Shown: in pieces, positions 2,573-30,280 of the stretch | Position numbering within the stretch: the stretch's first letter is position 1 | Layout of the letters: the number at the start of each line of letters is the position of its first letter | From: a virus | Strand: one strand, 5' to 3' | Virus record (IMG/VR): IMGVR_UViG_3300029914_000093 | Span: 1 to 31,211 of that record | DNA length: 31,211 nucleotides | Notes under the pieces: model-generated | Seen by the model: the letters and a program-made list of their open reading frames with translations, nothing else | What the model was told of the DNA's origin: nothing | Database searches by the model: none | Program-made: the position numbers and the translations under genes

Positions 2573-2754
2573 CGTGACTCCAAATTTTGGACTCGCGGCC
2601 CCGGCTCAATGCGCTCGTAAAGAACTGCGTCGTAGTAGTGATCCTCTCCCGTTGGAAGGCTGTTGAGGATACTTCTAGCAGCAGCCGTGCCTTCAGGGGT
2701 ATCGCGGAGCGTCGTGATCGGCTCATGGTCGCGTTCTAGTATCCAAACTTTCAC
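2569..2754 (-). CDS. Hypothetical protein (61 aa)
   Basis: Short protein beginning MKVWILERDHEPITTLRDTP. No family recognised. Its last codons (RVQNLESR) are encoded by palindrome copy A at 2577-2593, so here the element is read as coding sequence rather than supplying a stop. It overlaps the upstream gene by 32 bases and the downstream one by ATGA. Confidence 0.6.
   Translation of the reverse strand: MKVWILERDHEPITTLRDTPEGTAAARSILNSLPTGEDHYYDAVLYERIEPGPRVQNLESR
2577..2593 (-). repeat. 17-bp dispersed palindrome, copy A
   Basis: On the minus strand it reads AGTCCAAAATTTGGAGT, followed by CACG and ATG. The right arm gives GGAG in ribosome-binding position for the gene starting at 2572, while the element itself encodes the end of the 61-aa gene. 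One of eight copies in the window. Confidence 0.85.
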
Positions 2755-3154
2755 AGCCTACCCTCCCCGCTTCGTTCTCAGTCTTCCACTCCGTCTGTGT
2801 AATCCTGTGACGCTTGTTGAACGCATCAAACAGAGAGCAAGGCCCCTCGGTCATGCTCCACTCACCTGTAGCGCCAAGATAGTTGATGATCTCCAACGCT
2901 TCCGCCCAGGTAAAAGACGCCGCATTCCAGCACCAATTCCCATACCACTCTTTGTATGCCAGCGAGGTCGTCTGCTTCTCTCCGACCGTGACGTTCCCAT
3001 AGCCGCCACGAGTAGGGAAGTCGAACTCAACTGAAGTCTCACTTCCCTCGAACTCCATGTGAAGATCCCCGGCGTCTAAGTCCATCCGGTCGAAGCGGCC
3101 TACAAAGTTCCCGTTGTCGGGATCGTTGCAGGCGAAGTTTAGTGTGATTGCCAT
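2723..3154 (-). CDS. Hypothetical protein (143 aa)
   Basis: Beta-rich protein beginning MAITLNFACNDPDNGNFVGR, then MDLDAGDLHMEFEGSETSVE and a helical region around WAEALEIINYLGATGEWSM. The start is preceded by GAGGTAGTT. It could be a small DNA- or ligand-binding fold but no motif decides this. The C-terminus overlaps the 61-aa gene by 32 bases. Function unknown. Confidence 0.72.
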   Translation of the reverse strand: MAITLNFACNDPDNGNFVGRFDRMDLDAGDLHMEFEGSETSVEFDFPTRGGYGNVTVGEKQTTSLAYKEWYGNWCWNAASFTWAEALEIINYLGATGEWSMTEGPCSLFDAFNKRHRITQTEWKTENEAGRVGCESLDTRTRP

Positions 3155-3156
3155 AA

Positions 3157-3402
3157 CTACCTCTTTCCCCGATGCTTCCTGAAATACCGCTCTCCGCTGA
3201 GAACCGCTGCGTTAACAGTAGGCATCACCGATGCCATCGTAGGCCGCCCTGCGCTCTCCCAGGCTTCATCTGCCGTGCTCCCCTGCCCAAGCAACGGCCC
3301 GACCGCAAAGAAAGCATCCCACGCGACGACTATGAATATCTCGCCGTGATGGATGCACTTTGCTCTTGGATGCTCCGGTAATCTTTTCTCTTTTCCCACC
3401 AT
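3157..3402 (-). CDS. Hypothetical protein (81 aa)
   Basis: The chosen ATG at 3402 has GAGGAGGATTGTTCA before it, a strong ribosome binding site. An alternative GTG at 3480 overlaps the HNH stop as GTGA and would add 26 residues. The protein reads MVGKEKRLPEHPRAKCIHHG, then IFIVVAWDAFFAVGPLLGQG with a glycine-rich turn and a helix STADEAWESAG. No family recognised. Confidence 0.62.
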   Translation of the reverse strand: MVGKEKRLPEHPRAKCIHHGEIFIVVAWDAFFAVGPLLGQGSTADEAWESAGRPTMASVMPTVNAAVLSGERYFRKHRGKR

Positions 3403-3476
3403 TGAACAATCCTCCTCTTTTCCTCTATGGTTGCGCGTATTCAACACGCCATGCTTTTTCTCCGCTGCGCTAGGCT

Positions 3477-4079
3477 TCACATGGTCCCTACTTCAGATTG
3501 TTCCTTGTCTTTGCTTACGTCAACCCCCCACTTTTCCGGTTCTTTCTTTCGGTTGCGCATCACGGCACCAATATACTTCACCAATTTTCTAAACTCATCA
3601 CATCCGTAGAACTGACCACGAAGATATGGAAGAGTCGCAATTTTGATTGCTTCCGCTATCTCTTCTGCTCCGTATTGCGCAATCCAGGGAAGGAGTAAAA
3701 AGTTGCTCGGCTCGTTCTTTGGAGTGAGAGATTGGCACCACAAGTCCCGCAACGCATCGCAGAGTTGATCGTTCAACTCGTCCTGTCTTTTCTTCGCCTC
3801 AAGGAATCTCTGAACCTCCGCAATCTCCTGCTGTGTCTTCAAAAATGCAAGATCAGCGTCGGGCCTGGGCGCCACCTCCGAGATTACCTTAGCTGACTTC
3901 CCGCGGTTGCAGTCAAAGCAAGATGTGATAAGGTTCGTCAGATCATTCTTGCCGCCCTTCGACTGAGGGTGGATATGGTCACATTCCAAAACCACATCTG
4001 GAGGCCGCCGGCCGCAATACTGGCAGGTGAACCCATCTCTTGCGAAGACCTCAAACCGAACCGACTTCGACAATCCCAT
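3477..4079 (-). CDS. HNH endonuclease
   Basis: Predicted 200-aa nuclease that would cut DNA using a beta-beta-alpha-metal fold. The N-terminal domain shows FARDGFTCQYCGRRPPD, ECDHIHPQSKGGKNDLTNL and SCFDCNRGKSAK: the two CxxC knuckles bind a structural zinc, the DH pair and the following asparagine are the catalytic HNH residues. The C-terminal 130 residues are helical with a basic end (MRNRKKEPEKWG) and could bind DNA. In phages such proteins are either free-standing homing endonucleases or packaging-associated nucleases; this one is far from the terminase and next to a long non-coding stretch, which favours a mobile role. That choice is inference. Confidence 0.88.
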   Translation of the reverse strand: MGLSKSVRFEVFARDGFTCQYCGRRPPDVVLECDHIHPQSKGGKNDLTNLITSCFDCNRGKSAKVISEVAPRPDADLAFLKTQQEIAEVQRFLEAKKRQDELNDQLCDALRDLWCQSLTPKNEPSNFLLLPWIAQYGAEEIAEAIKIATLPYLRGQFYGCDEFRKLVKYIGAVMRNRKKEPEKWGVDVSKDKEQSEVGTM

Positions 4080-4203
4080 CTTCCCTCTCTTTCCCTCTTA
4101 GACAGAGCGCGGCTTCCCTAGGGATAAGCTCCTAAGTGGCCGCTATTCTCTACGTGGCTGAAGCGTCTTGACGACCGGGTGAAGGCTTAGTATGCGAAAG
4201 GGC

Positions 4204-4296
4204 TCACGCCCAATCCCGTAGGACCAGGGCGTAGCCGCGTATGCAGGAGTCAACCACCTGCCCGTTGCCTGGGTTTCGCCATTCCCGTGTCGTCAT
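4204..4296 (-). CDS. Possible micro-ORF (30 aa)
   Basis: Reads MTTREWRNPGNGQVVDSCIR and ends RDWA. Its ATG overlaps the stop of the preceding micro-ORF as TGATG, the same junction used by real genes here. No clear ribosome binding site. Very short, so it may be chance. Confidence 0.25.
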   Translation of the reverse strand: MTTREWRNPGNGQVVDSCIRGYALVLRDWA

Positions 4297-4397
4297 CAGT
4301 GCCTATGTCTGTACGCTTTCACTGCAAAAGCGGCCCGTTGCTTCTTCGGAGTAAGGAGTGCCGCGAACCCACCGGCCAGCATAAAGCTGGCTGCCAC
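4296..4397 (-). CDS. Possible micro-ORF with hydrophobic segment (33 aa)
   Basis: With a GTG start at 4397 the peptide begins MAASFMLAGGFAALLTPKKQ and ends in a basic tail (YRHRH), a short hydrophobic helix with positive C-terminus. An ATG at 4382 would shorten it to 28 aa. It is joined by TGATG to the next micro-ORF. The only support is this junction and the membrane-like pattern. Confidence 0.22.
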   Translation of the reverse strand: MAASFMLAGGFAALLTPKKQRAAFAVKAYRHRH

Positions 4398-4505
4398 GTA
4401 TCAGCTTGCCGGGTACAAATGAATGGGGGAATGAGAGGCACTTTCCTGCATCTCAATTTTCCGCATCAACCTCGACGAATTCACAGTAATTCAACGCGAT
4501 TTAAT

Positions 4506-4535
4506 TTGCAACTACTTTCTAAAATCATGTATCTT
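4506..4535 (+). promoter_or_regulatory. Candidate sigma70-type promoter
   Basis: TTGCAA (4506-4511) and TATCTT (4530-4535), each 4 of 6 to consensus, are 18 bases apart in the most AT-rich part of the region. Transcription would run rightward toward the hairpin at 4598-4627. The match is modest and no gene start directly follows. Confidence 0.3.
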
Positions 4536-4597
4536 ATGAGTGTGGTCGCCACGGCCGCCGTCTCTTTTCCGATCCCTCGACAGTTTCGCTAAGAGCG

Positions 4598-4640
4598 CAC
4601 CCAGCCCCTCGAAAGAGGGGTTTGGTGTTTGCATTTTTAT
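4598..4640 (+). terminator. Plus-strand intrinsic terminator candidate
   Basis: CCCCTC-GAAA-GAGGGG (4605-4620) forms a GNRA-capped stem, extended by CACC/GGTG (4598-4601 with 4624-4627), and is followed by a T-rich run including GCATTTTTATTT. It points rightward although no plus-strand gene precedes it, so it may end a small RNA started near 4540. Confidence 0.55.
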
Positions 4641-4721
4641 TTGACCCGGTGTACTCTTCAATCTACGGCGACTGGAGTTCGGGTCGCATACTCCGCTGGT
4701 TGTTCATTCTCCCTCCTTCTG

Positions 4722-4758
4722 CACCACGGCCTCCGGCTTGCCTCCGGGGGCCGTGGTG
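4722..4758. other. Large inverted repeat upstream of the deformylase
   Basis: CACCACGGCC (4722-4731) pairs exactly with GGCCGTGGTG (4749-4758), with an inner CCGG/CCGG pairing. On the plus strand it is followed by TGTTTGGTGT, only a weak T tract. It could be a leader structure, an operator or a weak terminator. Confidence 0.5.
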
Positions 4759-4921
4759 TGTTTGGTGTACAATTCCTTCAACAGCCAGCTCCACTTGAAA
4801 TTCCGCGCAGCACAGTCCCGCCTCGAAGTCTCATTCTTGCAAACCAAATCATCCTCTCTTGCTGGCACTCATCCGGCAGGAATGCCGGCTGTGCTATATT
4901 CTTCGGCATGGGGGAATGGGG

Positions 4922-5404
4922 ATGAAACGACCAATAATCATTTTTCCAGACGACCGCTTGACCACCGTCTGCGAGCCTGTGAAGTCTTTCGATAAACAAC
5001 TCAACGACCTGGTGGAAGACCTCTTCCAGACAATGTATTCCAGCGACGGCGTGGGCCTGGCCGCGCCACAGATCGGGGAATTGAAGCGTATCTTCGTCAT
5101 GGACGTTCGCAACAGCAAGAAGCCCCACAACCCACTCGCGTTCATCAACCCGCAACTTGAGGCCGCAACGGGTAGCGCCGTCGATGAGGAGGGCTGTCTC
5201 TCGATGCCTGGGCTCTTCCTGAACGTCCGCAGGGCAACCTACCTGCACTTCGTCTCACAGACGCTCTCTGGAGACGTACACTGGGGCTCCCTCCGTAACT
5301 TGGAGGCTAGGGTGTTTCAGCATGAACTCGATCATCTGGACGGGGTTCTGTTCTCGGTACGAGCGGGCTTGGAAGAGTTCGCCACAGCCGCAGGAAAGCA
5401 GTAA
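4922..5404 (+). CDS. def: Peptide deformylase (first copy)
   Basis: A 160-aa peptide deformylase, which removes the formyl group from the N-terminal methionine of new proteins. All three motifs are present and intact: GVGLAAPQIG (motif 1), EEGCLSMP (motif 2, with the metal-binding cysteine) and FQHELDHLDG (motif 3, with the two metal histidines and catalytic glutamate). The length is close to that of short phage-type enzymes. I chose the ATG at 4922 (MKRPIIIFPDDRL), with GGGGGA six bases upstream; an ATG at 4916 is also possible. It is one of only two plus-strand genes in the window and overlaps the next gene as TAATG. Phage deformylases are known, especially in cyanophages. A second, quite different copy lies at 22670-23257. 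Confidence 0.93.
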   Translation: MKRPIIIFPDDRLTTVCEPVKSFDKQLNDLVEDLFQTMYSSDGVGLAAPQIGELKRIFVMDVRNSKKPHNPLAFINPQLEAATGSAVDEEGCLSMPGLFLNVRRATYLHFVSQTLSGDVHWGSLRNLEARVFQHELDHLDGVLFSVRAGLEEFATAAGKQ

Positions 5405-5619
5405 TGAGAAGACTCTTCCCTTGGAGCAAGCGCATGAGCATACGCCACTACCTTAGACCCATCCCCAACTCGGATCACCGGCCACAGGAGGGCTTGAGGA
5501 TATTTGAAGCCCCTCGCTGCGAAGATGTGTTTGTGATTGTCGAGTCGCCGCTGCTGGAGTTCACTCAGAAGGATCTGGTGTTCCTGCGAGAGCGGGGGAT
5601 TGATCCGTTCCGAGAATAG
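5404..5619 (+). CDS. Hypothetical protein coupled to deformylase (71 aa)
   Basis: Begins MRRLFPWSKRMSIRHYLRPI and continues to CEDVFVIVESPLLEFTQKDL; an alpha/beta pattern with no motif I recognise. The ATG overlaps the deformylase stop (TAATG), so its translation likely depends on it. Its TAG stop (5617-5619) is formed together with palindrome copy B. Placement suggests a joint role with the deformylase, but that is only context. Confidence 0.68.
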   Translation: MRRLFPWSKRMSIRHYLRPIPNSDHRPQEGLRIFEAPRCEDVFVIVESPLLEFTQKDLVFLRERGIDPFRE

Positions 5620-5634
5620 TCCAAATTTTGGAGT
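5618..5634 (+). repeat. 17-bp dispersed palindrome, copy B, between convergent genes
   Basis: Reads AGTCCAAATTTTGGAGT. Its first two bases complete the TAG stop of the plus-strand 71-aa gene, and the TAG stop of the minus-strand membrane protein lies one base beyond the other end. It therefore marks the meeting point of two convergent genes. Confidence 0.85.
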
Positions 5635-5635
5635 C

Positions 5636-8824: not shown

Positions 8825-9805
8825 CTAGGCGTCGTGCGACTGAACCCAAGTTGAACCGGGTCCGAATCCAACGCGGCCCTCTTCCGCCCCGTACCGCCAG
8901 GTAACATCTTGTTGGTCAAGCATGTTTGAGGCGTTCTGCATCTGCTCAAGGGTAGAGTAGAACTCTTTCATCTTCTGCCCGGCCACGAGTGGATCGTAGT
9001 ATTTGCTCTGCCGGCCGCCAAAGAGCTTGGCATCGGCAATGGCTCTCCGCACGAGCACATCTGCACGGATGAAGGATACCGGCGAGTCGTTGTCCAGCAT
9101 CATGTCTGGTGGCTGAATGTATGCTTCAAAAGGAAACACCTGCGGCTGATAAGGCGTCGGCCACATCTCGATCTGAAATTGTCCGTCGGGAGTCGGTGGA
9201 AGCGTTGCGAAGTACGTTGTCCACCCGAGAGATACTCTCCACACATCCCAGGCGTCGATCGTTTCCTGGTTGCCGTTGACTTCGATCGGCCATCCTTGAT
9301 TTTGGTTCCTCGCGTGAAGGAGATATTTGACGTTGGCGCCGAGCATTGCGTACACGCATTGACATTGGTAGCCCCCTGTCCGAGTGGCGCCACCGTAAGG
9401 CGTGTCGATCGTCAACTGCTGAGTGATGGCGTTGACATTGTTGATTGTTCGCCACGGCCCCTGAAAGCCGCCACGGAACTGAAAGCCGATGAGAGAGTTT
9501 GTCCAAGCTGTTCCGATGCCTTGAACGATGTTGCTCCCGGTTGTGAGGATGCAAGTCCCAGTCGTGGTGATCTTGGGGATATTGATGTTCCCGCGCACCT
9601 TGAGGGCATACCATTGGTAGCTGTCAATCACCTCACGGTAGGCGTCGTTGATGAAACGGCCGGCCCACATCGGGTCTAGGTCTGGGTTCCAAGCGCAGAC
9701 CTGATTTATCATTTGTCTGAATCCGAGCTGTTGGACGTATGCCTGCGTCCCATTTGGTCCGACTTGATATGGGAACTGCGGATTTTGTGTGATTACAACA
9801 GGCAT
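8825..9805 (-). CDS. Virion protein, adaptor/connector-like (326 aa)
   Basis: The N-terminal region (LGFRQMINQVCAWNPDLDPM, then FINDAYREVIDSYQWYALK) has the helix pattern of phage head-tail adaptors that start by docking to the portal. A strand-rich insertion follows (TTTGTCILTTGSNIVQGIG, an Ig-like or GTxW motif shared with other adaptors), and the C-terminal domain (FQIEMWPTPYQPQVFPFEAY, then IRADVLVRRAIADAKLFGG) closes with helices. The order strand insert plus 'EMWPTP' segment is frequent in this type of protein. Palindrome copy C supplies GGAG seven bases upstream of its ATG. Role inferred with fair confidence. Confidence 0.74.
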   Translation of the reverse strand: MPVVITQNPQFPYQVGPNGTQAYVQQLGFRQMINQVCAWNPDLDPMWAGRFINDAYREVIDSYQWYALKVRGNINIPKITTTGTCILTTGSNIVQGIGTAWTNSLIGFQFRGGFQGPWRTINNVNAITQQLTIDTPYGGATRTGGYQCQCVYAMLGANVKYLLHARNQNQGWPIEVNGNQETIDAWDVWRVSLGWTTYFATLPPTPDGQFQIEMWPTPYQPQVFPFEAYIQPPDMMLDNDSPVSFIRADVLVRRAIADAKLFGGRQSKYYDPLVAGQKMKEFYSTLEQMQNASNMLDQQDVTWRYGAEEGRVGFGPGSTWVQSHDA

Positions 9806-9810: not shown

Positions 9811-9827
9811 ACTCCAAATTTTGGACT
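9811..9827 (-). repeat. 17-bp dispersed palindrome, copy C
   Basis: On the minus strand it reads AGTCCAAAATTTGGAGT. The preceding T makes TAG, the stop of the 55-aa gene (9828-9826), and the right arm gives GGAG before AAGAC and the ATG at 9805. A single short element thus ends one gene and serves the start of the next. Confidence 0.88.
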
Positions 9828-9993
9828 ACCGCGAACGTGTTCTCGATACCGGCAAGGCCCGCTTCACCTTTCCACGCTGCTTCTTCGGCTTCGCTGTCTC
9901 GCGCTCAGGAAGAGCCCGCTTCACCGTACCGCCCTTCCAAGTCCTTGCTTCCTCTCGATCGGGAAGCGCCTTCTTGACGGTTCTGGATGCCAT
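9826..9993 (-). CDS. Basic repeat protein with three VK(K/R)ALP motifs (55 aa)
   Basis: A strongly basic protein too short for most gene callers. It carries three copies of a short repeat: VKKALPDRE, VKRALPERE and VKRALPVSR. The ATG overlaps the stop of the 49-aa gene (TAATG) and the TAG stop is made with palindrome copy C. A role in DNA condensation or binding to the capsid interior is possible for such a peptide encoded among virion genes, but this is not shown. Confidence 0.72.
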   Translation of the reverse strand: MASRTVKKALPDREEARTWKGGTVKRALPERETAKPKKQRGKVKRALPVSRTRSR

Positions 9994-17019: not shown

Positions 17020-17649
17020 TCAAAACCAGTTCTCTTGAAGTGCCATCCGTGTCCGCTCTTCGATCCAGAGCTTGAGTGGGGTCTCCGCATCCTTAGCCTT
17101 CGCCTGAGCGGTTGCGAACTGGTCTCCCAAATCCACGATAACCCTCCCCGGCGACCTCGACTCGTAAGCCTTTAGGTCTTCTACGGCTGCGTCCCGCTCA
17201 CCCTTGGCTTCGTCTACTTCACACATCTTCGCATAGACTATGCCAACAAGTTCACTGGAATTTGAGAACTTCTGTCCAAGGCGGTCAAACAGACGCCCTT
17301 TGTCTGTCATCCCAAGGATCATCACTTCGCCCTCGGCCATCTGTAAAAGGATGTCGGCTACCCTGGCCGAAACTGCCTCGTCACTCCCCCACTGAGCGGA
17401 TAGATCGGTCTTGATCCGCAAGGGTATCTTCAGGGTGATCGGCGTCTGCCCCTCAACAGGTGGGAACTTGGCCGGCCCTACCTTGAACTCCATTTGAGGC
17501 CCGTCTGCGTAGAAGGCCGCGGTGTCGTCCCACCGATGATTCGAGTTGGCCGGGCACGTCAACCTTCCCTCGGCGGCTGAAATCTGGTTCGACTGCCCCG
17601 TTTCACGCTTGCACTTCGGACAGCTAAATTCCGTCTTGAATGCTGGCAT
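17020..17649 (-). CDS. Zinc-ribbon protein upstream of portal (209 aa)
   Basis: N-terminus MPAFKTEFSCPKCKRETGQS followed by LTCPANSNHRW gives CPKC...C...H, a plausible zinc ribbon. The middle (ITLKIPLRIKTDLSAQWGSD) has strands, and the C-terminal third is a long charged helix (AAVEDLKAYESRSPGRVIV; KDAETPLKLWIEERTRMALQ). The gene lies between the terminase and portal, where small packaging helper proteins can occur. Its start is preceded by GGGGAGGAGAAAG right after palindrome copy D. Function unknown. Confidence 0.72.
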   Translation of the reverse strand: MPAFKTEFSCPKCKRETGQSNQISAAEGRLTCPANSNHRWDDTAAFYADGPQMEFKVGPAKFPPVEGQTPITLKIPLRIKTDLSAQWGSDEAVSARVADILLQMAEGEVMILGMTDKGRLFDRLGQKFSNSSELVGIVYAKMCEVDEAKGERDAAVEDLKAYESRSPGRVIVDLGDQFATAQAKAKDAETPLKLWIEERTRMALQENWF

Positions 17650-17664
17650 CTTTCTCCTCCCCTT

Positions 17665-17681
17665 ACTCCAAAATTTGGACT
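17665..17681 (-). repeat. 17-bp dispersed palindrome, copy D
   Basis: Minus strand AGTCCAAATTTTGGAGT. With the preceding T it makes the TAG stop of the 101-aa gene (17682-17680); the ribosome binding site of the 209-aa gene begins a few bases after it. Together with copy E it brackets the 101-aa gene. Confidence 0.88.
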
Positions 17682-17985
17682 ACGTGTTTTTGAACATCAA
17701 CTCGACCTCGACGCCGCGCATACGGTTCATGCAAGCCTCGAACTCTCTATCGAACTCTTCGACTGTTACCTTCGGAACTTTTGTTTCCTCTGCCAAGAAC
17801 CGCTTCCACTTATCATGTAGCCACCCGCCGGGAAGCCGATGAATCATTTCGGCCATTGAGAGCCGCGACACCTGATACCACATCGTCCCGTCGCTGCGGA
17901 GCCTGAAGAAACATACATGCTCAATCTCCGTGTGGCACGGGTCTTTTTTTTGAAACTGGAATACTCTACGCTTCACCCATTCCAT
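17680..17985 (-). CDS. Hypothetical protein bracketed by two palindromes (101 aa)
   Basis: Begins MEWVKRRVFQFQKKDPCHTE, includes EHVCFFRLRSDGTMWYQVSR and a helical C-terminus (VTVEEFDREFEACMNRMRGV). No family recognised. The gene is the only content of a 333-base unit from one palindrome copy to the next: copy E lies 13 bases before its ATG (with GAGGAGGGGTT between), copy D makes its stop. This looks like a gene cassette that could move as a unit; no transposase or other mobility gene is near. Confidence 0.7.
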   Translation of the reverse strand: MEWVKRRVFQFQKKDPCHTEIEHVCFFRLRSDGTMWYQVSRLSMAEMIHRLPGGWLHDKWKRFLAEETKVPKVTVEEFDREFEACMNRMRGVEVELMFKNT

Positions 17986-17997
17986 AACCCCTCCTCG

Positions 17998-18014
17998 GCT
18001 CCAAAATTTGGACT
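17998..18014 (-). repeat. 17-bp dispersed palindrome, copy E
   Basis: Minus strand AGTCCAAATTTTGGAGC. It makes the TAG stop of the Tat-leader gene (18015-18013) and lies directly before the ribosome binding site of the 101-aa gene. One base differs from consensus at the last position. Confidence 0.86.
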
Positions 18015-18333
18015 ACTGAACCCGCTTGTAAAAGTTGGTCTTCACATCTTCGATTGTGAACACATAGTGCCAGCCGCAGTTCGGGCAGATCACCGGCATT
18101 CCAAACCACCACCGAAAGCGTGTTCCGCAGCCTCGATACATCCACGGAGCCTCCTTCTGAATCTCCGTCACCTCTTCAGGCGTCAGTCGCGATGCTCCTC
18201 TGTCGCAGGTATGTTCAAACATCATCGGCCCTACGGCCTCGTCCGCAGGCTTCTCGGCTGCTACTGCCGGGATAGCTGCTGCCGCCATTACTGTTGCTCC
18301 TACTCCGAAGAACTTCCTTCTTGATACGTCCAT
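18013..18333 (-). CDS. Tat-leader protein with zinc ribbon (106 aa)
   Basis: The N-terminus MDVSRRKFFGVGATVMAAAA matches the twin-arginine signal consensus (S-R-R-x-F-F), followed by a hydrophobic stretch and an AVAAE stretch that would suit signal peptidase. The mature part has EHTCDRG, YRGCGTRFRWWFG and VICPNCGWHYVFTIED, a four-cysteine arrangement that could bind a metal. Such a protein would be exported folded across the inner membrane, unusual for a phage gene placed between terminase and portal. The frame is open upstream but the ATG at 18333 gives the signal peptide at the very N-terminus. Whether it is exported is inference. Confidence 0.75.
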   Translation of the reverse strand: MDVSRRKFFGVGATVMAAAAIPAVAAEKPADEAVGPMMFEHTCDRGASRLTPEEVTEIQKEAPWMYRGCGTRFRWWFGMPVICPNCGWHYVFTIEDVKTNFYKRVQ

Positions 18334-18335
18334 GT

Positions 18336-18542
18336 TTACGCCAACCAATCTGGTCGAATGACCGTCTTCACGTCTGCAATGAAATCTTCCTGCTTCCCGA
18401 CAATGAGAAGCGCGTTTGCCTTTCTGTGCATCAGGCCCAGTGTTGGCATCTCCACAACGAACCTCTCCTGTGGCTGTAACTTCGCCCAAATCCTGTTGTA
18501 CTGATCCAGCGTGATAAAACAGACCTTCATTTGATTTTCCAT
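18336..18542 (-). CDS. Hypothetical protein (68 aa)
   Basis: ATG at 18542 has AAAGGAGGAAACA in front, a near-perfect ribosome binding site, so it is preferred over one at 18572. The protein reads MENQMKVCFITLDQYNRIWA, then QERFVVEMPTLGLMHRKANA and LLIVGKQEDF, an alternating strand/helix fold. It directly follows the large terminase gene. No family recognised. Confidence 0.72.
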   Translation of the reverse strand: MENQMKVCFITLDQYNRIWAKLQPQERFVVEMPTLGLMHRKANALLIVGKQEDFIADVKTVIRPDWLA

Positions 18543-18556
18543 TGTTTCCTCCTTTT

Positions 18557-20719
18557 TCACTGATAAAGCCATGAATTCTCGTCATCCGAGTCCAGTTCCG
18601 CCTGATCCGCCTCGTACTGGGCTATCGCCTCTGGAGTTATCAGCTCCGGATCGATCCCGTCCTCGTACATGCGCGAAGCCGTCCCATTGCCGTCAAACAC
18701 AGGGCTGTACTCGCTATTCTGAAAATCGCTAGGTACTTTCCTTTCCCCCAATCCCTTCAGGTTGACTGTAGCGGTCGCCCCCGCCGTCCTCACGATACTG
18801 CTTCCGATGTTCTTCTTCGACACTCGCTCCGCTTCATGCTGCGAGTTCGTCGTCTGAATGATTGTACCGAATCGGTCGAGGATTTTGAATTCATTCTGCT
18901 GCTTTGTCGATTCCTGCTTGCTGGTCCCCTCCCGCATCTCGCGGTACTCAGCCTCGTGGCCGCAGTAAAGAGCGATGTGAAGACTCATCATAAGGTCGTC
19001 CCTAGCCCCGTCTCCCTCGGCTCCATCTTCAGTGAAATCATAAAACTCGTCGACGGTGAATTTGTCTGGAATGTTGAGCAAGTCATCAATCAGCGTCTTC
19101 GACATCTTCGACATCAAGGCCCGCTTGGTCTTGTCATTCGTCCAAAAGCCGATAATGTCGGTCATCCAATGAGTCAGTTTGTCGAGGTGCTTGTACCGAT
19201 AGATGTTCTCGTACTCGTACTGGCGGACCAACTTGTTGTTCGTCACCATGCCCATCGAATTTACTTCCACGGCCGCCAGAGCCTCGTTGTACATCCAGCA
19301 AATTGCTAGAGTTACATCAGCCAGCGACTCGGGATCAATATAGCCGTGCCACACTGCCACCACTTCATCCTTCGGCAGGTCTAGAGATATGTCGATTACC
19401 GTGACTGATGAGAAGTCGCCGCCGTCGTTTCCAAGGCTCACGTCCACCCCTACGACATAGACCGCGCCTGGCCGCTCACGCTTCCATACACTGAAGCGGT
19501 TGTGGTGCTTTGGATACTCCAAGTCGGCAGTCGGCTCCACTTCGCGGACCATCACCTTCGGCCGGCCAGCGTCGAAGTCGTAACTGATCTCCCCAATCCA
19601 CTTCGGGTTCAGCACTCGTTTCATCAGCTTGTTGATGATGCCCAACGGATATGCGGTGACTGCGGAGGTCTGGAAAGACTCCTCTGCGGTAAGGCTGTAT
19701 TCCTGATTGAACATTTTGTCGTCGCCATCGTTAGCGATGAATTCCTGAATCCTCTTCCGGCGCCAGTTGAAGACTTCGTTCTTCATCGCGAAGCCGTCTT
19801 TTTTGAGAACGAGGGATTTTATCTCTTCCTCGTCCTTCGTCAACGTAAAGACTTCGCCTTTGGGAATCGGCAGAGAGTACGTCTTTTCGCGCCTGTAAAA
19901 CGGAATATAGACCGGGTTCCAGTCAATGTCTCCAGCTTCCGCTTTACGCCACATATTGTGCCAAGGATTATTACGCCCCTTAGGGGTTGAAATCATTACA
20001 TAGAAGCCGTCGGGGGAGTTGAAGGTTGGGAATAGTGCTTTAGTAAGTTGGCTTGGATCGGTCCAGAACGGCAACTCGTCGAGGTGGGCTCTTGCGAAAG
20101 TTTTAGACCTCCCCACTCCGGTCGGCTTGTTCCCGTTGTCTCCGTAGATGCGCGTCTTCAGTCCTGGGCGAGTGATTCGCAGGGTTTCGTCTTTCTCATC
20201 AAAGTCGATGAATTTTCCGGCCTCTTGATAGCGAATTCGGGGACGCATCCACCACGGTAAAAAGTCAAGAGCCGCTGCGTACATATCGAGGATGTACCGG
20301 GTCACATCGGCGTCCTGAGCTACGACGATGGAGTTTACATGCTCACTGAAGATTGTTGCCGCGAAGACTTCCCCTGAGACATACGTGCTGCCCCCCATCT
20401 GTCGAGCCTTGTTGACGATTGCTTTTACGCGTCCAAACTGCTTCTCCAGCCGGCGGAATTCGTCATGCAGAATCTCCTGCGAATCCCAAAACGGGTACAA
20501 CCCGGTGAAGCCGCGGTCCTCAGTTTTGATGGCATAGTAGTTGGATAGGAAGTAACGTCGCTCAGTCATGCAGTGGAGTATCTCTGCATCTATCCAAGCA
20601 TTGTCATCTTTAGAAAGATACTCGCGGGCCTTCGCTTGATCGCCACTGTACTTTTGGAGATGGAGGTCCAACACCTCAATAATTTCTTCTAAGTGAGGAT
20701 TTGCGCGACGGATTCCCAT
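18557..20719 (-). CDS. terL: Terminase large subunit
   Basis: A 720-aa packaging motor: an N-terminal ATPase and a C-terminal nuclease domain. The ATPase shows a Walker A-like KARQMGGSTYVSG, Walker B with acidic pair in RAHLDELPFW and the coupling motif MISTPKG. The nuclease region has VVGVDVSLGNDGGDFSSVTV with the first acidic residue, AAVEVNSMGMV with the second and GARDDLMMSLHIAL with the third. It runs longer than the usual ~450-650 residues because of an extra C-terminal ~110 residues ending in an acidic tail (ELDSDDENSWLYQ). The small-subunit candidate directly precedes it. The Walker A lysine position is occupied by the usual terminase variant, not a defect. Confidence 0.92.
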   Translation of the reverse strand: MGIRRANPHLEEIIEVLDLHLQKYSGDQAKAREYLSKDDNAWIDAEILHCMTERRYFLSNYYAIKTEDRGFTGLYPFWDSQEILHDEFRRLEKQFGRVKAIVNKARQMGGSTYVSGEVFAATIFSEHVNSIVVAQDADVTRYILDMYAAALDFLPWWMRPRIRYQEAGKFIDFDEKDETLRITRPGLKTRIYGDNGNKPTGVGRSKTFARAHLDELPFWTDPSQLTKALFPTFNSPDGFYVMISTPKGRNNPWHNMWRKAEAGDIDWNPVYIPFYRREKTYSLPIPKGEVFTLTKDEEEIKSLVLKKDGFAMKNEVFNWRRKRIQEFIANDGDDKMFNQEYSLTAEESFQTSAVTAYPLGIINKLMKRVLNPKWIGEISYDFDAGRPKVMVREVEPTADLEYPKHHNRFSVWKRERPGAVYVVGVDVSLGNDGGDFSSVTVIDISLDLPKDEVVAVWHGYIDPESLADVTLAICWMYNEALAAVEVNSMGMVTNNKLVRQYEYENIYRYKHLDKLTHWMTDIIGFWTNDKTKRALMSKMSKTLIDDLLNIPDKFTVDEFYDFTEDGAEGDGARDDLMMSLHIALYCGHEAEYREMREGTSKQESTKQQNEFKILDRFGTIIQTTNSQHEAERVSKKNIGSSIVRTAGATATVNLKGLGERKVPSDFQNSEYSPVFDGNGTASRMYEDGIDPELITPEAIAQYEADQAELDSDDENSWLYQ

Positions 20720-22456: not shown

Positions 22457-22725
22457 CACACCCTCGCTTCGGGAACCTTGACTTCGGTCCCGTCCTTCCG
22501 TATCCCCTTCATCTCCGTGTTGCTCACGTACACCTTCCGGTCAAAGCCGTAGGAGCACCCGCGCTCTTCGTTGAAACACTCGTAGCGCAATGAGTCGACG
22601 CCACGGCGCCCCATCTTGACCGTCATGGTCATTGCCTTACCACAGCCGCCGCAAATGACTGTTCCACCCTCAAGCGGTGACTGTTCGGGAATGCTGCGCC
22701 TGGGTACTGGTGGTTGCTCTGCCAT
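22456..22725 (-). CDS. Zinc-ribbon protein (89 aa)
   Basis: MAEQPPVPRRSIPEQSPLEG is a loose N-terminal tail, followed by VICGGCGKAMTMTV and YECFNEERGCSYGF, giving CxxC plus two further cysteines as possible zinc ligands. Reads like transcription-factor-type ribbons. ATG at 22725 has GAGGAGGACACA upstream. The coding region overlaps the end of the deformylase frame by 56 bases, and palindrome copy F lies between. Confidence 0.74.
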   Translation of the reverse strand: MAEQPPVPRRSIPEQSPLEGGTVICGGCGKAMTMTVKMGRRGVDSLRYECFNEERGCSYGFDRKVYVSNTEMKGIRKDGTEVKVPEARV

Positions 22726-23257
22726 TGTGTCCTCCTCGTGTGAGTCCAAAATTTGGACTCCCATTCTGTTTGAATGTGTGCTTCCACTGGTGGAACTGAT
22801 CCAACACCTTCGACTTCTCCACCACACTCGCTCTGTCTACAAAGAATGTCCCCGCCAAGTGATCTACTTCATGCTGCACCACCCTCGCATCCCTGCTGGA
22901 GAAATGCCAGTCTTTCACAACTGCCGGCTCTTCGATCGAACTCCCTATTACGTTGATGAATTGCATCCTCGCCGTAGGGCATCGGTTTCCGCCTGGAGGG
23001 CAACTTATGCAGCCTTCGGGATATTCTGTCTCCGCTCCGTACATCCTCTCGATATGAGGATTCAAAAGCGTCAACCGCTTCCCTCCCGATAACCTCACCA
23101 CTACCATCTGAATCGGAAACCCGATCTGTGGAGCGGCCAACCCCGGTATCCCAAACTCGTTGATGACCGCAAGCATGTGCGCTTCAATGTTCCGAAGGTA
23201 TTCTAACTCTTGCGGGTAGAGAATTTCGATCTCAAGATACGCCGATTGCGAAACCAT
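22670..23257 (-). CDS. Peptide deformylase (second copy)
   Basis: A 195-aa deformylase with all three motifs: PGLAAPQIG, EGCISCPPGG and VQHEVDHLAGTFF. It differs strongly from the copy at 4922, for example in having a second cysteine after motif 2 and a longer loop GNRCPTARMQFINVIGSS. Cys, the two His and Glu expected for metal binding and catalysis are present. Start chosen at 23257 (MVSQSAYLEIEILYPQ); an ATG at 23320 overlaps the small gene before it. The last ~30 residues run through palindrome copy F and into the next gene and look unlike a normal deformylase end, so the native stop may have been lost. Confidence 0.86.
   Translation of the reverse strand: MVSQSAYLEIEILYPQELEYLRNIEAHMLAVINEFGIPGLAAPQIGFPIQMVVVRLSGGKRLTLLNPHIERMYGAETEYPEGCISCPPGGNRCPTARMQFINVIGSSIEEPAVVKDWHFSSRDARVVQHEVDHLAGTFFVDRASVVEKSKVLDQFHQWKHTFKQNGSPNFGLTRGGHNGRATTSTQAQHSRTVTA
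22742..22760. repeat. 17-bp dispersed palindrome, copy F (perfect 19-bp dyad)
   Basis: GAGTCCAAAATTTGGACTC, a perfect inverted repeat with a central A, the most symmetric copy. It lies inside the last codons of the second deformylase (reading SPNFGL) and just before the ribosome binding site of the 89-aa gene. Confidence 0.86.
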
Positions 23258-23286
23258 CTCTGACCCGAAGAAATAGAGTTTCAAGG

Positions 23287-23418
23287 CTACCTCTCCACGA
23301 ACAGGCTTTGAAGTTCCCATAGCGTAACTTTCAACGCCATCAGGGATCGACGGTACTTCCCGAGACAGAGTATTTCGTCTGCCCTCTCACGCCATAAATT
23401 TCCAAGGTGGGCTTTCAT
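23287..23418 (-). CDS. Small basic protein (43 aa)
   Basis: Reads MKAHLGNLWRERADEILCLG, then KYRRSLMALKVTLWELQS, a helical, basic peptide. Its ATG overlaps the stop of the 168-aa gene as ATGA, the main argument that it is real. It ends 30 bases before the deformylase start. Function unknown. Confidence 0.52.
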   Translation of the reverse strand: MKAHLGNLWRERADEILCLGKYRRSLMALKVTLWELQSLFVER

Positions 23419-26128: not shown

Positions 26129-26158
26129 AAAAGAAAGCCCCCAGCCGAAGCCGGGGGC
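26129..26158 (-). terminator. Strong intrinsic terminator after the 174-aa gene
   Basis: A 9-bp GC stem (GCCCCCGGC with GCTGGGGGC, one G-U pair) is closed by a TTCG tetraloop at 26137-26158 and followed on the minus strand by TTTCTTTTG. The C(TTCG)G loop is especially stable. It ends the accessory operon before the GC-rich junction. Confidence 0.85.
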
Positions 26159-26161: not shown

Positions 26162-26178
26162 AGTCCAAATTCTGGAGT
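26162..26178. repeat. 17-bp dispersed palindrome, copy G (one base changed)
   Basis: Plus strand AGTCCAAATTCTGGAGT, one T to C change from consensus. It starts two bases after the TAG stop of the 174-aa gene and lies right before the terminator stem, on the 3' side of the gene. Confidence 0.7.
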
Positions 26179-26179
26179 G

Positions 26180-26704
26180 CTAGACGAAGTTGGCGTGATT
26201 GAGGGAGCAGGCCGGGCCGTGGCCGTCGATCTCTCCGCACTCGTCGCAGCCTGCCGCTTCGGCGTCTATTGCCGCCTCCGCCTCTGCGGCTGTGTCGTAC
26301 CAACCTATAACCTGACCGCGATGGGTTGCCTTAAACCGTGGCGTGTTGACGATCGCTGTACGCTCCTCGCATGACCGCTCCTCGCTGTGCTGCTCTCCGC
26401 ATAGATCACAACTTGGAGTGTTGCCGATCCGCGTCCTGCCGCCGTCCTGCTCCATCTCCGCTATCATCGCCCGGTTAGCTGCTTTCGCCTCTTCCGTCAC
26501 TTCTGAGGTCTCGCAGTCCTGCCGGTCGCTGGGTTCCATCAGGGCCGCCGTGTGCGCGTTGTCTGCCACTCTCAAGGCTAGCTCTGCCGCTACCTGACAC
26601 CAGCCCGCCAGTTCTACCTGTAGCAAGTGGGCCTGTGAATGGTTGCCGCGCTCTTTGAAGCATCGAGCCGCTACCAGTTTCCCTATTCTCTCCGCTGCTT
26701 CCAT
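26180..26704 (-). CDS. Hypothetical protein with zinc-ribbon pairs (174 aa)
   Basis: N-terminal helices (AERIGKLVAARCFKERGNHS; LLQVELAGWCQVAAELALRV), then CDLCGEQHSEERSCEE and, near the end, GCDECGEIDGHGPACSLNHA, two cysteine/histidine groups that could bind zinc. Between them lies RFKATHRGQVIGWYDTAAEA, a segment like those in small proteins that use a 'AxxWxxTAxEA' helix. The start has GGAGGAGATGAGGAGAC upstream. No family known to me. Confidence 0.72.
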   Translation of the reverse strand: MEAAERIGKLVAARCFKERGNHSQAHLLQVELAGWCQVAAELALRVADNAHTAALMEPSDRQDCETSEVTEEAKAANRAMIAEMEQDGGRTRIGNTPSCDLCGEQHSEERSCEERTAIVNTPRFKATHRGQVIGWYDTAAEAEAAIDAEAAGCDECGEIDGHGPACSLNHANFV

Positions 26705-27363: not shown

Positions 27364-27464
27364 TGCTCCTGCCTCCTCTTGCGGTTGTCATTCTGCTGGC
27401 TCTCTGTGCTCCACTCTCTGAAAGATAGGTCCAGACCCACACCAGCCGCAGGCCGGGACCGCAT
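27354..27464 (-). CDS. Possible 36-aa ORF
   Basis: Fills the gap between the 93-aa and 62-aa genes: MRSRPAAGVGLDLSFREWST and then a basic tail NRKRRQEQCT. Its stop overlaps the start of the 62-aa gene by ten bases. There is no good ribosome binding site, so it may be chance. Confidence 0.25.
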   Translation of the reverse strand: MRSRPAAGVGLDLSFREWSTESQQNDNRKRRQEQCT

Positions 27465-27509
27465 CGGCAAAGCTAACGCAACTATGCCGACAGTTAATAC
27501 ATCGGTACG

Positions 27510-27791: not shown

Positions 27792-27842
27792 ACTTCCTCC
27801 ATGCCTCAACTATCGCCCCAAACCGCTAAGGGTTCAATACCC

Positions 27843-28118
27843 CTACTTGCAGCCTTTCATGTGGACGCCACCCAACGCGCCACACTTCAAGCAGCCGCTC
27901 GACCTGGCCGCTGGTTTCGCTTCCTCTTGAATGATTATCGGTTTCGGTTTCTCTTCCTTTGAGACCACGGCTCCAGGACTCCGCGACTCTACGACCACGG
28001 GATCAACGGTCTTATCGTCACAGTTCCAGATGCGGCTCTTACACTTCGCGCACCTGACCGGCTTCGCCTCACTTATCCAACGATGCCCGCACAAATCACA
28101 CCTACACTCAAATGCCAT
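27843..28118 (-). CDS. Zinc-ribbon protein (91 aa)
   Basis: MAFECRCDLCGHRWISEAKP and VRCAKCKSRIWNCDDKT give two CxxC knuckles spaced as in a classical zinc ribbon; the last residues (SGCLKCGALGGVHMKGCK) add a third group. The middle is a disordered, Glu/Lys/Pro-rich linker. A GTG at 28139 and an ATG between are alternative starts. DNA- or RNA-binding is the most likely role of such a protein, but this is inference. Confidence 0.74.
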   Translation of the reverse strand: MAFECRCDLCGHRWISEAKPVRCAKCKSRIWNCDDKTVDPVVVESRSPGAVVSKEEKPKPIIIQEEAKPAARSSGCLKCGALGGVHMKGCK

Positions 28119-28132
28119 CACCTGTTTGTACA

Positions 28133-28170
28133 TGGACACATAGTACCACTAGGGTTGGACACATAGTACC
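28133..28170. repeat. Two 15-bp direct repeats, 23 bases apart
   Basis: TGGACACATAGTACC occurs at 28133-28147 and again at 28156-28170, identical in all 15 bases. The first copy overlaps the 5' end of the 91-aa gene's longer start options. Two tandem sites at about two helical turns suggest an operator for a regulator, or a multi-site transposase/replication protein binding region. Confidence 0.75.
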
Positions 28171-28512
28171 GTCGGCGAGTCTAACACACTCATCAACGCA
28201 TCTTGATACCTCGATACAATTGGCACTATTGCGCCATCTAAGAGGGCGCTGGAGGACGGCGAGACGAGATTACCGCCGCGTCTCTTTCGCGTCCCTGGCT
28301 CCGTGTTCGTGTTGGCTTGGGCCGCTGCGCTGGCTGTTTCGTGGATGTTTTGGGCTTTAGGTTGGCTCAGGTGGGGCTGGCGCTGAAGGGGTGAGGCTGG
28401 GGGTAGGGGGATTCTTGTATGGGGAAGGGCAGTAGAGATTAGGGGAATTTAGTATAGGGGTGGGTGGGTATCGGTGCCTGTGGTGGGGTGGTGCAACGAT
28501 ACCCGAGCCTGG
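28140..28512. other. Intergenic region with repeats and G-runs
   Basis: No gene is supported here. The left part holds the direct repeats and a hairpin GCGCC/GGCGC near 28230-28250; the right part (28382-28497) is a plus-strand G-rich tract with about ten runs of three to five G. A TTGATA/TATTGC pair on the plus strand is too weak to call a promoter. Confidence 0.55.
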
Positions 28513-28734
28513 TTAAAGGTTCCTGACAATGACTGTGTTTCGGTAGTCTTTCCGGCGCTTCCTGTTCTCTGGCTTGTTCAACCATCCCGCCGATTGCGTA
28601 GCCTTCTCTGCGATGAGTTCTCGAAGCTCGAAACCGTCCCACTCTTCTGGCATCTTCGAGATTGAATCAACTACCGTTAACTTGATGCTGTCACACAGGT
28701 CTTCGATAAAAAGCCGCTTCTCGTATCTGTCCAT
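28513..28734 (-). CDS. Hypothetical protein (73 aa)
   Basis: Helical: MDRYEKRLFIEDLCDSIKLT, then VVDSISKMPEEWDGFELREL and a basic end (NRKRRKDYRNTVIVRNL). GAGGAAAGCAA lies before the ATG. The basic C-terminus could touch nucleic acid. No family recognised. Confidence 0.72.
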   Translation of the reverse strand: MDRYEKRLFIEDLCDSIKLTVVDSISKMPEEWDGFELRELIAEKATQSAGWLNKPENRKRRKDYRNTVIVRNL

Positions 28735-28801
28735 TTGCTTTCCTCGCTTTCCTTTGAGTGCCTCTCTCGCCTTCCCTGCGGGGCTTGGCGGCTGGGGCCG
28801 T

Positions 28802-29041
28802 CTACCGGGCCGCGATTTCTTCCGGCTCCTCGTAGATCGTTCCGCATTGAGCCTTTACGATGATCCGCTCCGGCTCGTTGGCTGGTAATACCGTGTAGAT
28901 CGCGCACCAGGGCAGCTTCCAAATTCCATTTCTCAGGTATTGCCGCTCTAGGTACTGCCTCACTGCTTTGTCGCTCTCTGCCTTGTACTCGATATAGACG
29001 TGAAGCAGGTCGTAAGACATTGACACATAAAAGCTCTTCAT
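28802..29041 (-). CDS. Hypothetical protein (79 aa)
   Basis: Alternating strands and one helix: MKSFYVSMSYDLLHVYIEYK, AVRQYLERQYLRNGIWKLPW and AIYTVLPANEPERIIVKAQC. Probably a small alpha/beta protein. GGAAGGAGCACGAGAGA precedes the ATG. Function unknown. Confidence 0.7.
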   Translation of the reverse strand: MKSFYVSMSYDLLHVYIEYKAESDKAVRQYLERQYLRNGIWKLPWCAIYTVLPANEPERIIVKAQCGTIYEEPEEIAAR

Positions 29042-29233
29042 TCTCTCGTGCTCCTTCCTTCGGTTGCGGCTTGCGCCGGTTATCGGTCAGTGGGCAGGGT
29101 AGGCAGTAGGAAACCTCTCGGCCGAGTAGGGCGCTCCAATCGGTTTGTCCTAGTGCCGATGCTTTGGCAGTTCGGGCCGCGAGTCCTTTCCCAAGTCTCC
29201 TACCGCCTGCGCTGCCCACCGTCGCGGGTTGCG

Positions 29234-29821
29234 CTACGATATTTCTTGCGCCTCGGCGATCTCTTCGGCTGTGAAGAAGCGCCGGAACTTGGCGTACTCC
29301 TCCTGCACGGCGCGGTACACGTCGAACGCCTTCATTGAGTCGTCAGAGTATCCGAAATCGCCGCAAAAGTCCTTGAACGTGCCGGGCTCGTTCTTCTCGA
29401 TGCAGGCTAGGAGGTCGTAGGCTTCCGGGGTCTTCTTGGGTCCATTCATCCACGCAGACAGGCCCGCGTTCTCTGGCGTCACTGGCCGTTTGATGCGACC
29501 GTACTTGTACAGCCCCACCGCAAACCGGCCTTCCTGTTGCGCCTTCCGATATTCCGGCGAGCCGAGCGCGTTAAATTCCTCGTCCGCGTAGCTATTCCAG
29601 AAGTCAAAGTCAACGTGCCCGCGATCGGTGCCGCTGATCGTGCAGCGGTAGTGCTTGCCGTGAATGTGGCTCTTCCGGGGGAAGGTGTTTACCTTGTCCA
29701 TGTCCCGGCCTGCCTGGGCGTCTTCGCAAAACTTCGGGCAGTCGTCGCCCACAAGCACAGACCGAAATTCCAGCCCATGCGCCTTTAAGAAATTCTCTGC
29801 CTGTTCGGTGTATTCGCTCAT
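29234..29821 (-). CDS. Conserved phage/plasmid hypothetical protein (195 aa)
   Basis: The order YTEQAENFLKAHGLEFRSVL, then VGDDCPKFCEDAQ, IHGKHYRCTISGTDRGHVDF and, near the end, PEAYDLLACIEKNEPGTFKD followed by FCGDFGYSDDSMKAFDVYRA is one I have seen in many phage and plasmid proteins of unknown function. The 'TFxDFCxDFGYxxDS' part is the most conserved. It begins with a helix and ends in another (AEEIAEAQEIS). No role is established, but the family is widespread. Confidence 0.82.
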   Translation of the reverse strand: MSEYTEQAENFLKAHGLEFRSVLVGDDCPKFCEDAQAGRDMDKVNTFPRKSHIHGKHYRCTISGTDRGHVDFDFWNSYADEEFNALGSPEYRKAQQEGRFAVGLYKYGRIKRPVTPENAGLSAWMNGPKKTPEAYDLLACIEKNEPGTFKDFCGDFGYSDDSMKAFDVYRAVQEEYAKFRRFFTAEEIAEAQEIS

Positions 29822-29865
29822 GTTGTCCTCTTCTCCGTTGGTTGTGCGCTGGCTCCGCGCTGTGG

Positions 29866-30060
29866 TTAGGCTTCCTCAAATTCCGCTTTGCGGCTGAGGT
29901 AGCCGGGTTCGTGGGTGTCGTTGTACTGCTTGCAGATCGCGCGGGCGTCGGAGTATGTGACGTGCTTCCTGAGGTAAGTTTTCTTCCCCACCCCTGGCTC
30001 CCTTCCGGTTGCCGTGCGCCTCCACCAGTTGCGAACAAACACGTTGTAATAGGCTTCCAT
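29866..30060 (-). CDS. Hypothetical protein (64 aa)
   Basis: ATG at 30060 has CAGGAGGAAAG upstream. MEAYYNVFVRNWWRRTATGR is followed by KTYLRKHVTYSDARAICKQY and NDTHEPGYLSRKAEFEEA, with many aromatic and basic residues, a pattern like small RNA- or DNA-contacting proteins. It lies downstream of the candidate promoter at 30091-30118. No family recognised. Confidence 0.7.
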   Translation of the reverse strand: MEAYYNVFVRNWWRRTATGREPGVGKKTYLRKHVTYSDARAICKQYNDTHEPGYLSRKAEFEEA

Positions 30061-30090
30061 CTTTCCTCCTGTGGCTCTTGCCACTCCTTC

Positions 30091-30118
30091 ACTGTAACGC
30101 GGTTCCTGGCGTTTGCAA
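30091..30118 (-). promoter_or_regulatory. Candidate sigma70-type promoter
   Basis: On the minus strand TTGCAA (30118-30113) and TACAGT (30096-30091), both 4 of 6, are 16 bases apart, ending about 30 bases before the ATG at 30060. It would start the accessory operon that runs leftward. Match quality is modest. Confidence 0.38.
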
Positions 30119-30263
30119 TCCCCCTGCCCTGCGGCTTAAATCCTGCCTTCCCTCCCGCCGGCCTGGGGCTTCCGACGGCCGTCCTGTCCTTCGGATCTCG
30201 CCGCAAAAAGAAGGCTCCCGGCGCTCTGGAAGATTCCACGACACCAGAACACCAGAAGCCACG

Positions 30264-30280
30264 AGTCCAAATTTTGGACT
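30264..30280 (-). repeat. 17-bp dispersed palindrome, copy H (perfect dyad)
   Basis: AGTCCAAATTTTGGACT on the plus strand, the same with central A on the minus. With the preceding T it makes the TAG stop (30281-30279) of the 137-aa gene. Unlike copies C-E no gene starts close downstream. Confidence 0.87.

Follow-up and report, generated by a model that had tools for sequence, protein, structure and literature searches.

Why would a phage genome carry one and the same short palindrome at gene junction after gene junction? The question is raised by a viral DNA stretch of 31,211 nucleotides (IMG/VR virus record IMGVR_UViG_3300029914_000093, positions 1 to 31,211), referred to below in its full length as the window, in which a 17-bp inverted repeat with the core TCCAAA-W-TTTGGA recurs eight times. 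The answer favored here, read from sequence and given a probability of roughly 0.5, is that the palindrome would be a double-stranded DNA site for a dimeric protein encoded by the phage itself and that its copies would form a dispersed operator network. The leading, still unproven, candidate for the binder is a conserved early protein with a predicted DNA-binding fold of the ParB/Noc type and without a CTPase domain.

All eight copies reported in the initial annotation of this DNA are present (Table 1), and the consensus proposed there, with at most one other change per copy, is borne out. A search of the window allowing up to three mismatches to AGTCCAAAWTTTGGACT returns exactly these eight copies, against 0.09 expected from dinucleotide shuffles of the window, and none of 100 shuffles reaches eight. 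Chance as the origin of the repeat is ruled out by shuffle, Markov and half-site counts. The comparison with shuffled sequence that the annotation had called for is thus clear in the window, and further copies are found in a longer record and in relatives. The longer record, IMGVR_UViG_3300031788_000007 (G010, 78,982 bases), contains the window in reversed orientation at 99.99% identity and is therefore the same virus, covered over a larger part of its genome.

Table 1. Positions in the window of the palindromic sites and of the two genes used as landmarks
Feature	Position	Strand	Context
Palindromic site	2577..2593	-	Coding-strand reading AGTCCAAAATTTGGAGT; 4 nt before the start of open reading frame (ORF) 2327-2572
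Palindromic site	5618..5634	+	Its AG finishes the TAG stop of + strand ORF 5404-5619
Palindromic site	9811..9827	-	Overlaps the stop of ORF 9826-9993; 5 nt before the start of 8825-9805
Palindromic site	17665..17681	-	Overlaps the stop of ORF 17680-17985; 15 nt before ORF 17020-17649 (p209)
Palindromic site	17998..18014	-	333 bp from site 17665; overlaps the stop at 18013; 12 nt before ORF 17680-17985
Palindromic site	22743..22759	-	Within the last 30 codons of ORF 22670-23320 (second peptide-deformylase-like); 17 nt before the ATG at 22725
Palindromic site	26162..26178	-	One core change; between the stop of ORF 26180-26704 and a terminator-like hairpin
Palindromic site	30264..30280	-	Overlaps the TAG stop at 30279; next called gene 203 nt on
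p209, 209-aa conserved gene	17020..17649	-	Downstream of the terminase-portal site
Terminase large subunit	18557..20719	-	Anchor for collecting relatives

Counting the core with at most one mismatch, G010 holds 19 copies against about 0 expected. Together with G039 (24 copies), G051 (21) and G050 (20), it is one of the four richest records; fewer copies occur elsewhere, with eight in the 104-kb G005 and four in the 46-kb G037. Clade records longer than 45 kb hold 4 to 24. For five records with 6 to 19 sites, ten second-order Markov copies apiece gave 0 to 0.1 expected copies, and TCCAAA is the sole odd-centered 6-bp half-site repeated at least three times in G010, G039, G005 and G050. The site is kept up throughout the clade. 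An exact 17-mer scan of IMG/VR returned 31 stretches, and relatives whose nucleotide identity is 99% (mosaic), about 90% or about 70-75% hold several copies too. The terminase anchor led to 35 loci, and the exact core was found in 21 of the 25 of their records that were searched whole, with the reversed control pattern in none. Another eight records, reached via other genes and in part near-identical, all carry the core with at most one mismatch, in up to 21 copies, again with no control match. This phage group is uncultivated and is seen in dozens of metagenome contigs. Positions 1-25000 of the window have no megablast match among 50,697 isolate phage records, and terminase and capsid matches in isolate phages are remote (all below 60% identity, the best rows at 27% and 31%).

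The inverted half-sites had been put down to a dimeric DNA-binding protein. The palindrome is confirmed, and its halves do not covary. Over 146 sites from 15 records, some of which share sites, the half-sites vary independently or nearly so: the outer pair is complementary in 23% of 43 sites of the G010 type, against 48% expected under independent halves, and in 84%, 54% and 29% (the last from seven sites) of those of the other groups, against 85%, 54% and 46% expected, respectively. As the outer letters pair no better than chance, a DNA site for a dimer is indicated and not an RNA hairpin. Conservation falls to near background directly outside the 17 bp, and the outer letter next to the core depends on the subclade, being C or G in the G010 type, G in G005, G002 and G007 (also in G014, see below) and T or C in the G039 type.

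Copies lying inside genes are kept as DNA. Most of them read V/L-Q-N/I-L-D/E, others S-P-N/K-F-G, in unrelated proteins, and across 11 records the site itself (core with at most one mismatch) encodes 16 of 18 VQNLD-like and three of three SPNFG-like peptides. A copy is also retained in the corresponding linker of the orthologues of G010 72163-72795 in eight of eight genomes with diverged proteins, the copy of G039 and one of the two copies of G050 having one mismatch and G044 being identical to G047 there. A linear motif acting at the protein level was rejected, as the peptides follow the DNA of the site exactly and the site is read in all three frames. The operator network, one of the two possibilities first raised for this repeat, is thus supported by the independence of the half-sites, the sharp 17-bp limit, the subclade-specific outer letter and the embedding of the site in coding sequences of unrelated proteins.

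All copies had been described as lying at or near the 3' end of a gene. In the window, this stands for six of the eight (5618, 9811, 17665, 17998, 26162 and 30264), which touch or nearly touch the 3' end of an ORF. It fails for the copy at 2577, which lies 129 nt past the nearest called upstream stop and just before a start codon, and for the one at 22743, which is inside an ORF and close to the ATG of the next gene, itself preceded by GAGGAGG. Five copies (2577, 9811, 17665, 17998 and 22743) sit equally 4-17 nt upstream of a start codon. The site at 5618 is in a convergent region with no gene start beyond, its ORF following the peptide deformylase gene 4859-5404, and the hairpin beside the site at 26162 is GC-rich, with a T run, at about 26129-26158. 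The further claim that no copy lies in the interior of a gene is refuted in G010, where two copies are inside an ORF of 3,828 codons and others in a 210-codon gene and in a minus-strand regulator-like gene; an element confined to gene ends is ruled out by these intragenic copies. The giant ORF itself (G010 51517-63003, loci L059/L060) spans 11.5 kb and has strawberry-notch-like helicase matches. Hairpin promoters of the N4 type go with a giant virion RNA polymerase gene; such a system finds no support here, as this ORF matches helicase families and no polymerase family.

Taken over 11 records, which are related so that sites and P values are not independent, 52 of 127 copies are wholly inside called genes, whereas 103 would be expected from gene length. 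Gene junctions are thus preferred and not required. Genes were called with a simple caller made for this analysis, and those shorter than 120 nt were dropped from the counts. In 47 stop-site pairs, the site begins from two bases before to four bases after the end of the stop codon, 27 copies supplying part of a stop codon, and in 43 site-start pairs the start codon is 4-17 nt downstream. Within 20 nt downstream, a start codon follows 9 of the 19 copies of G010, 6 of the 24 of G039, 8 of the 20 of G050 and 4 of the 21 of G051, where random positions would give about 0.5-0.7. Copies probably favor junctions because a compact genome tolerates them best there, the DNA word being needed somewhere in each stretch. 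Of 31 loci, among which many are near-identical, 26 carry a site in the terminase-p209 interval. The same stretch (window 17020-20719; L082-L115) looks like a slot for variable cargo, as its sequence differs in many relatives and ranges from almost nothing to about 1.5 kb.

Spacing was compared in eight records with random placement matched for the numbers of junction and intragenic sites. It is significantly even in four of them, namely G010 (coefficient of variation 0.46 against 1.03, P 0.0002), G039 (P 0.0014), G005 (P 0.015) and G051 (P 0.041). The Fisher combination over the eight, 2.7e-6, is overstated since the genomes are related. Many individual positions turn over between relatives, and the retention of sites at matching gene ends, offered in the initial annotation as a check, holds only in part. 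The junctions before p209, before the 326-aa gene and before the exonuclease gene recur between G010 and its relatives, as do two genes with internal sites, and the junction of site 9811 also has a site in G031, G039 and, by eye, G022. With P values uncorrected for 22 tests over 11 relatives, the upstream sites of G010 coincide significantly only with those of G039 (P 0.011), and the genes with internal sites coincide between G010 and G039, G047, G050 and G051 (P 0.007-0.041). A role as a gene-boundary sequence for recombination, the other possibility first raised, is not supported: all 12 breakpoints between two 99%-identical mosaic relatives are within 29 nt of called gene boundaries, and only two are within 50 nt of a site, against 0.81 expected for random boundaries (P 0.19).

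A search for helix-turn-helix (HTH) regulators, also recommended at the outset, yielded four conserved candidate DNA-binding genes in the early region: (a) the leading candidate mentioned above (G010 75120-75854, outside the window), (b) an HTH_17-like protein and (c, d) two XRE proteins. On reading the sequence, the N-terminal 120 residues of candidate (a) resemble a ParB-type HTH, and the AlphaFold2 (AF2) model has predicted local distance difference test (pLDDT) values of 83-93 over residues 1-120. Over that stretch, the model is closest in VIA-align to Noc bound to its site (6y93, Z 7.8), Spo0J (1vz0, Z 7.8) and ParB (6t1f, Z 7.5), and nine of the 11 listed rows covering the N-terminal domain (about residues 1-127) are ParB or Noc, with Z 6.0-7.8. 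Among viral models searched with Foldseek, proteins named DUF3102 and Spo0J/ParB-like rank fourth, sixth and sixteenth (E 0.03 to 1.1). The protein begins with the HTH region and has no Pfam match and no recognized ParB_N CTPase domain; PF02195 (ParB_N) is above its cut-off in none of 10 records. A sub-threshold ParB_N-like match (E 2.5e-4) was seen at G005 88577-88840, in that clade record only.

The site also occurs in a second phage group, represented by G014 and by loci L204 and L205. An integrase is present in G014, which shows no nucleotide similarity to G010 and no match to seven structural proteins of the window; two of its small proteins match clade proteins (E 7.5e-14 and 1.2e-4). 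Members of this group carry four to six copies within at most about 6 kb, one of them inside the same gene in all three. In L205, a relative of G014, the sites are CGTCCAAACTTTGGACA, and those of G014 are mostly 14-34 nt before early genes. By eye, a hairpin-like inverted repeat and AAAAC are seen just upstream of several sites in phages of this type (L203, L204, L205). No significant homologue of any of the four candidates of the clade was found in G014. The product of its site-bearing gene (51799) shows a weak match to a Borrelia replication/partition family (E 0.0042; 17.6 bits against a cut-off of 60), is the best non-member match of the candidate (a) family in hmmsearch (E 0.055, the next being 0.068) and, against 117 clade profiles, gives with candidate (a) the longest alignment in the 14 best-scoring rows (70 columns, the next having 33). 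Used as a tie-breaker, this gene points to candidate (a), which is not proof.

With such a site and such a binder, we infer that a phage-encoded dimer would bind each copy, the bound dimers acting as control points over the whole genome. Flanking genes on either side and also lying within very long ones, they would limit or gate transcription as roadblocks or operators, by analogy with stoperators. At junctions the site often lends its letters to a stop codon. Bound copies may also organize the genome, and the reading that they serve a structural purpose, in compaction or positioning, comes close behind. A bolder and doubtful proposal joins both roles: a CTPase-less ParB/Noc-type protein of lytic phages might serve as nucleoid organizer and genome-wide governor of transcription on spaced palindromes over the whole 80-100 kb genome, including conserved sites in coding sequences, with the same kind of site-protein pairing in the second, largely dissimilar temperate group.

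Several results weigh against the operator network or its proposed binder. The exact core is absent from four of the 25 terminase-bearing relatives, which are 4.6 to 20 kb long and two of which have copies with one or two mismatches, and of the 18 records that the 17-mer first brought up, eight hold a single copy, chance hits being possible among them. Spacing is not significantly even in G007 (P 0.096), G047 (0.28), G002 (0.37) and G050 (0.47). Promoter-like sequence, scored with a crude sigma70-type consensus, is not enriched at sites (37 against 113 junctions, P 0.54), nor are intrinsic terminators (8 of 109 sites against 18 of 243 control gene ends). Regarding candidate (a), the VIA-align Z of its ParB/Noc match is below 8, a range where chance helical matches occur, and the other two of the 11 rows on the same domain are Raf1, an unrelated helical protein, with Z 7.3 and 6.0. 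Foldseek against the PDB returns nothing with E below 1, Spo0J being fourth at E 1.8, and no viral fold hit has E below 0.001. Searches of Pfam, PHROGs, NCBIfam and PDB sequences gave no ParB/Noc match for this protein. A site is within 700 nt of its gene in only three of nine genomes. Its similarity to the G014 51799 product is not significant and is third by score when each family is counted once. Finally, the three other conserved DNA-binding genes co-occur with candidate (a), so that co-occurrence cannot single out the binder, and scans with three candidate-binder families found only loci also bearing the site and hence do not discriminate among candidates. The absence of any sign of lysogeny in the clade, considered next, belongs to the same side.

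The best surviving alternative, judged somewhat unlikely, is the operator or stoperator network of a lysogeny repressor, in which candidate (b) (G010 63221-63874) would bind the sites and the bound copies would silence the prophage. This protein has an HTH_17 match below the cut-off (E 0.0015, 19.2 bits against 27) and weak excisionase and transcriptional-regulator PHROG hits. Its gene is on the strand opposite the neighboring early genes in all eight examined records that hold it, carries a site at its 3' end in four of these (G010, G044, G047 and G051) and adjoins a small Cro-like gene of 66 aa. Against it, the AF2 model has a pLDDT of 59, too poor to interpret, and no homologue was found in G014. 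In addition, no tyrosine integrase (PF00589) was detected in the nine clade records and no serine resolvase (PF00239) or AAA_31 ParA (PF13614) in the 10 records searched, all of which may be incomplete; as a control, the PF13614 search gave matches in 14 of 14 genomes. A terminase pattern scan of 84,980 species genomes returned 260 pattern matches, none confirmed as a relative; 42 of 396 Acidobacteriota genomes matched the terminase, and the 10 loci inspected are 23-29% identical and lack the site. Lysogeny is thus without support from these records, and the searches brought up no prophage.

Unlikely as well is the view that the copies are genome-organizing or centromere-like sites on which a ParB/Noc-type protein compacts, positions or protects the replicating phage genome instead of controlling transcription. 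It would fit the even spacing beyond junction placement in half of the records tested, the turnover of many positions, the copies inside the 11.5-kb ORF and the ParB/Noc-like predicted fold of a conserved early protein. The lack of ParA and of an above-threshold ParB_N CTPase domain in the 10 records makes the known sliding and partition mechanism unavailable, however, and the clustering of the G014 sites within about 6 kb, before early genes, is as for regulation.

That the palindrome is the site of a host regulator exploited by both phage groups is improbable. The site is common to two largely dissimilar groups, and one exact 17-bp copy lies in Terriglobus albidus (L149:5641-5657), 57 nt ahead of the start called for a gene that by eye looks TetR-type; it may be that regulator's own operator, or chance. 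However, the exact 17-mer is found in only 30 stretches of 257 Gb of bacterial and archaeal contigs, one copy each with no contig repeated, which by estimate is about the chance level, and three acidobacterial genomes have the core once each.

Least probable by far is a start-associated or translational RNA hairpin hiding or presenting a ribosome-binding site, for which the 4-17-nt gaps of the site-start pairs, the GGAG within some sites and the folding of the isolated 17-mer (better than shuffles, z -2.3 and -4.1) can be cited and which, like an RNA terminator, is disfavored by outer pairs that do not covary and in the G010 type match less often than chance, by the lack of terminator enrichment, by three sites that in 51-nt context show no folding advantage over shuffles (z -0.08 to -0.27), by sites located within genes and at the end of a convergent gene, and by the absence of any Rfam family match in the window.

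Among known systems, the operator network proposed here resembles the stoperators of cluster A mycobacteriophages, a parallel drawn in the initial annotation that is sustained by copy number and genome-wide spread and weakened by the symmetry of the site and perhaps by the integrase, resolvase and ParA not found in the clade records. Cluster A phages are temperate, with an integrase or parABS, and a repressor bound to their stoperators blocks transcription elongation. The cluster A phages L5 and Bxb1 have 20-30 stoperators over the genome, most of them off promoters, with a motif that drifts with relatedness; these 13-14-bp sites have no dyad symmetry, bind a monomer and are oriented with transcription (PMC6550527). 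The 19, 24, 20 and 21 copies of the four richest records, spread genome-wide, are similar in number; however, the present site is palindromic and often intragenic, and its phages have no detected integrase or ParA. In SPbeta, the 15-bp SPBRE is a conserved element at promoter regions in several places of the genome, bound by the phage-encoded master repressor MrpR, which has a tyrosine-recombinase fold (PMC10516654); in contrast, PF00589 has no match in the nine clade records of the present phages. The start-associated sequences of cluster K are asymmetric 13-bp GGGATAGGAGCCC elements found in 11-19 copies just before start codons, about half with an inverted repeat upstream, and restricted to the genome half with non-structural genes (PMC3203893). 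The present site has another sequence, is palindromic and genome-wide, and occurs inside genes and among head and packaging genes too.

Noc and KorB sites are dispersed along their genomes. Noc-binding sites, parS and KorB operators are palindromes of 13-16 bp bound by a ParB-type HTH (PMC7383237), whereas candidate (a) has no CTPase domain, no ParA was found and the site sequence TCCAAAWTTTGGA differs. A full-text search for the two core strings brought up a single paper, on liver cancer judging from its title, and searches on ParB, palindrome, operator and phage themes showed nothing resembling the element among the titles listed; judging by these searches, the network is undescribed so far.

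The genes of these phages include those for terminase, portal, major head protein, RNA ligase, an HNH endonuclease, a RecT-type annealing protein, a DnaB-type helicase, exonucleases and a Holliday-junction resolvase, and almost all called genes point in one direction (105 of 108 in G010). Two peptide deformylase genes occur in one genome, one per strand (window 4859-5404 and 22670-23320). An acyl carrier protein gene lies in the early region (L060 8899-9138, corresponding to G010 68899-69138), with matches in four relatives. Besides the full-length gene for the terminase large subunit, two further ORFs (G010 46562-47365 and 49010-49765) are related to parts of it.

To our knowledge, dispersed operator networks are known from few phage groups. 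Being palindromic, in several records more evenly spaced than expected by chance and built into conserved coding places, the present one would offer a clean case for studying what need a phage has of control sites only a few kilobases apart. Should the ParB/Noc-type protein prove to be the binder, this fold would be at work without CTPase and without ParA, and the site and the protein would make a directly testable pair in an uncultivated phage group.

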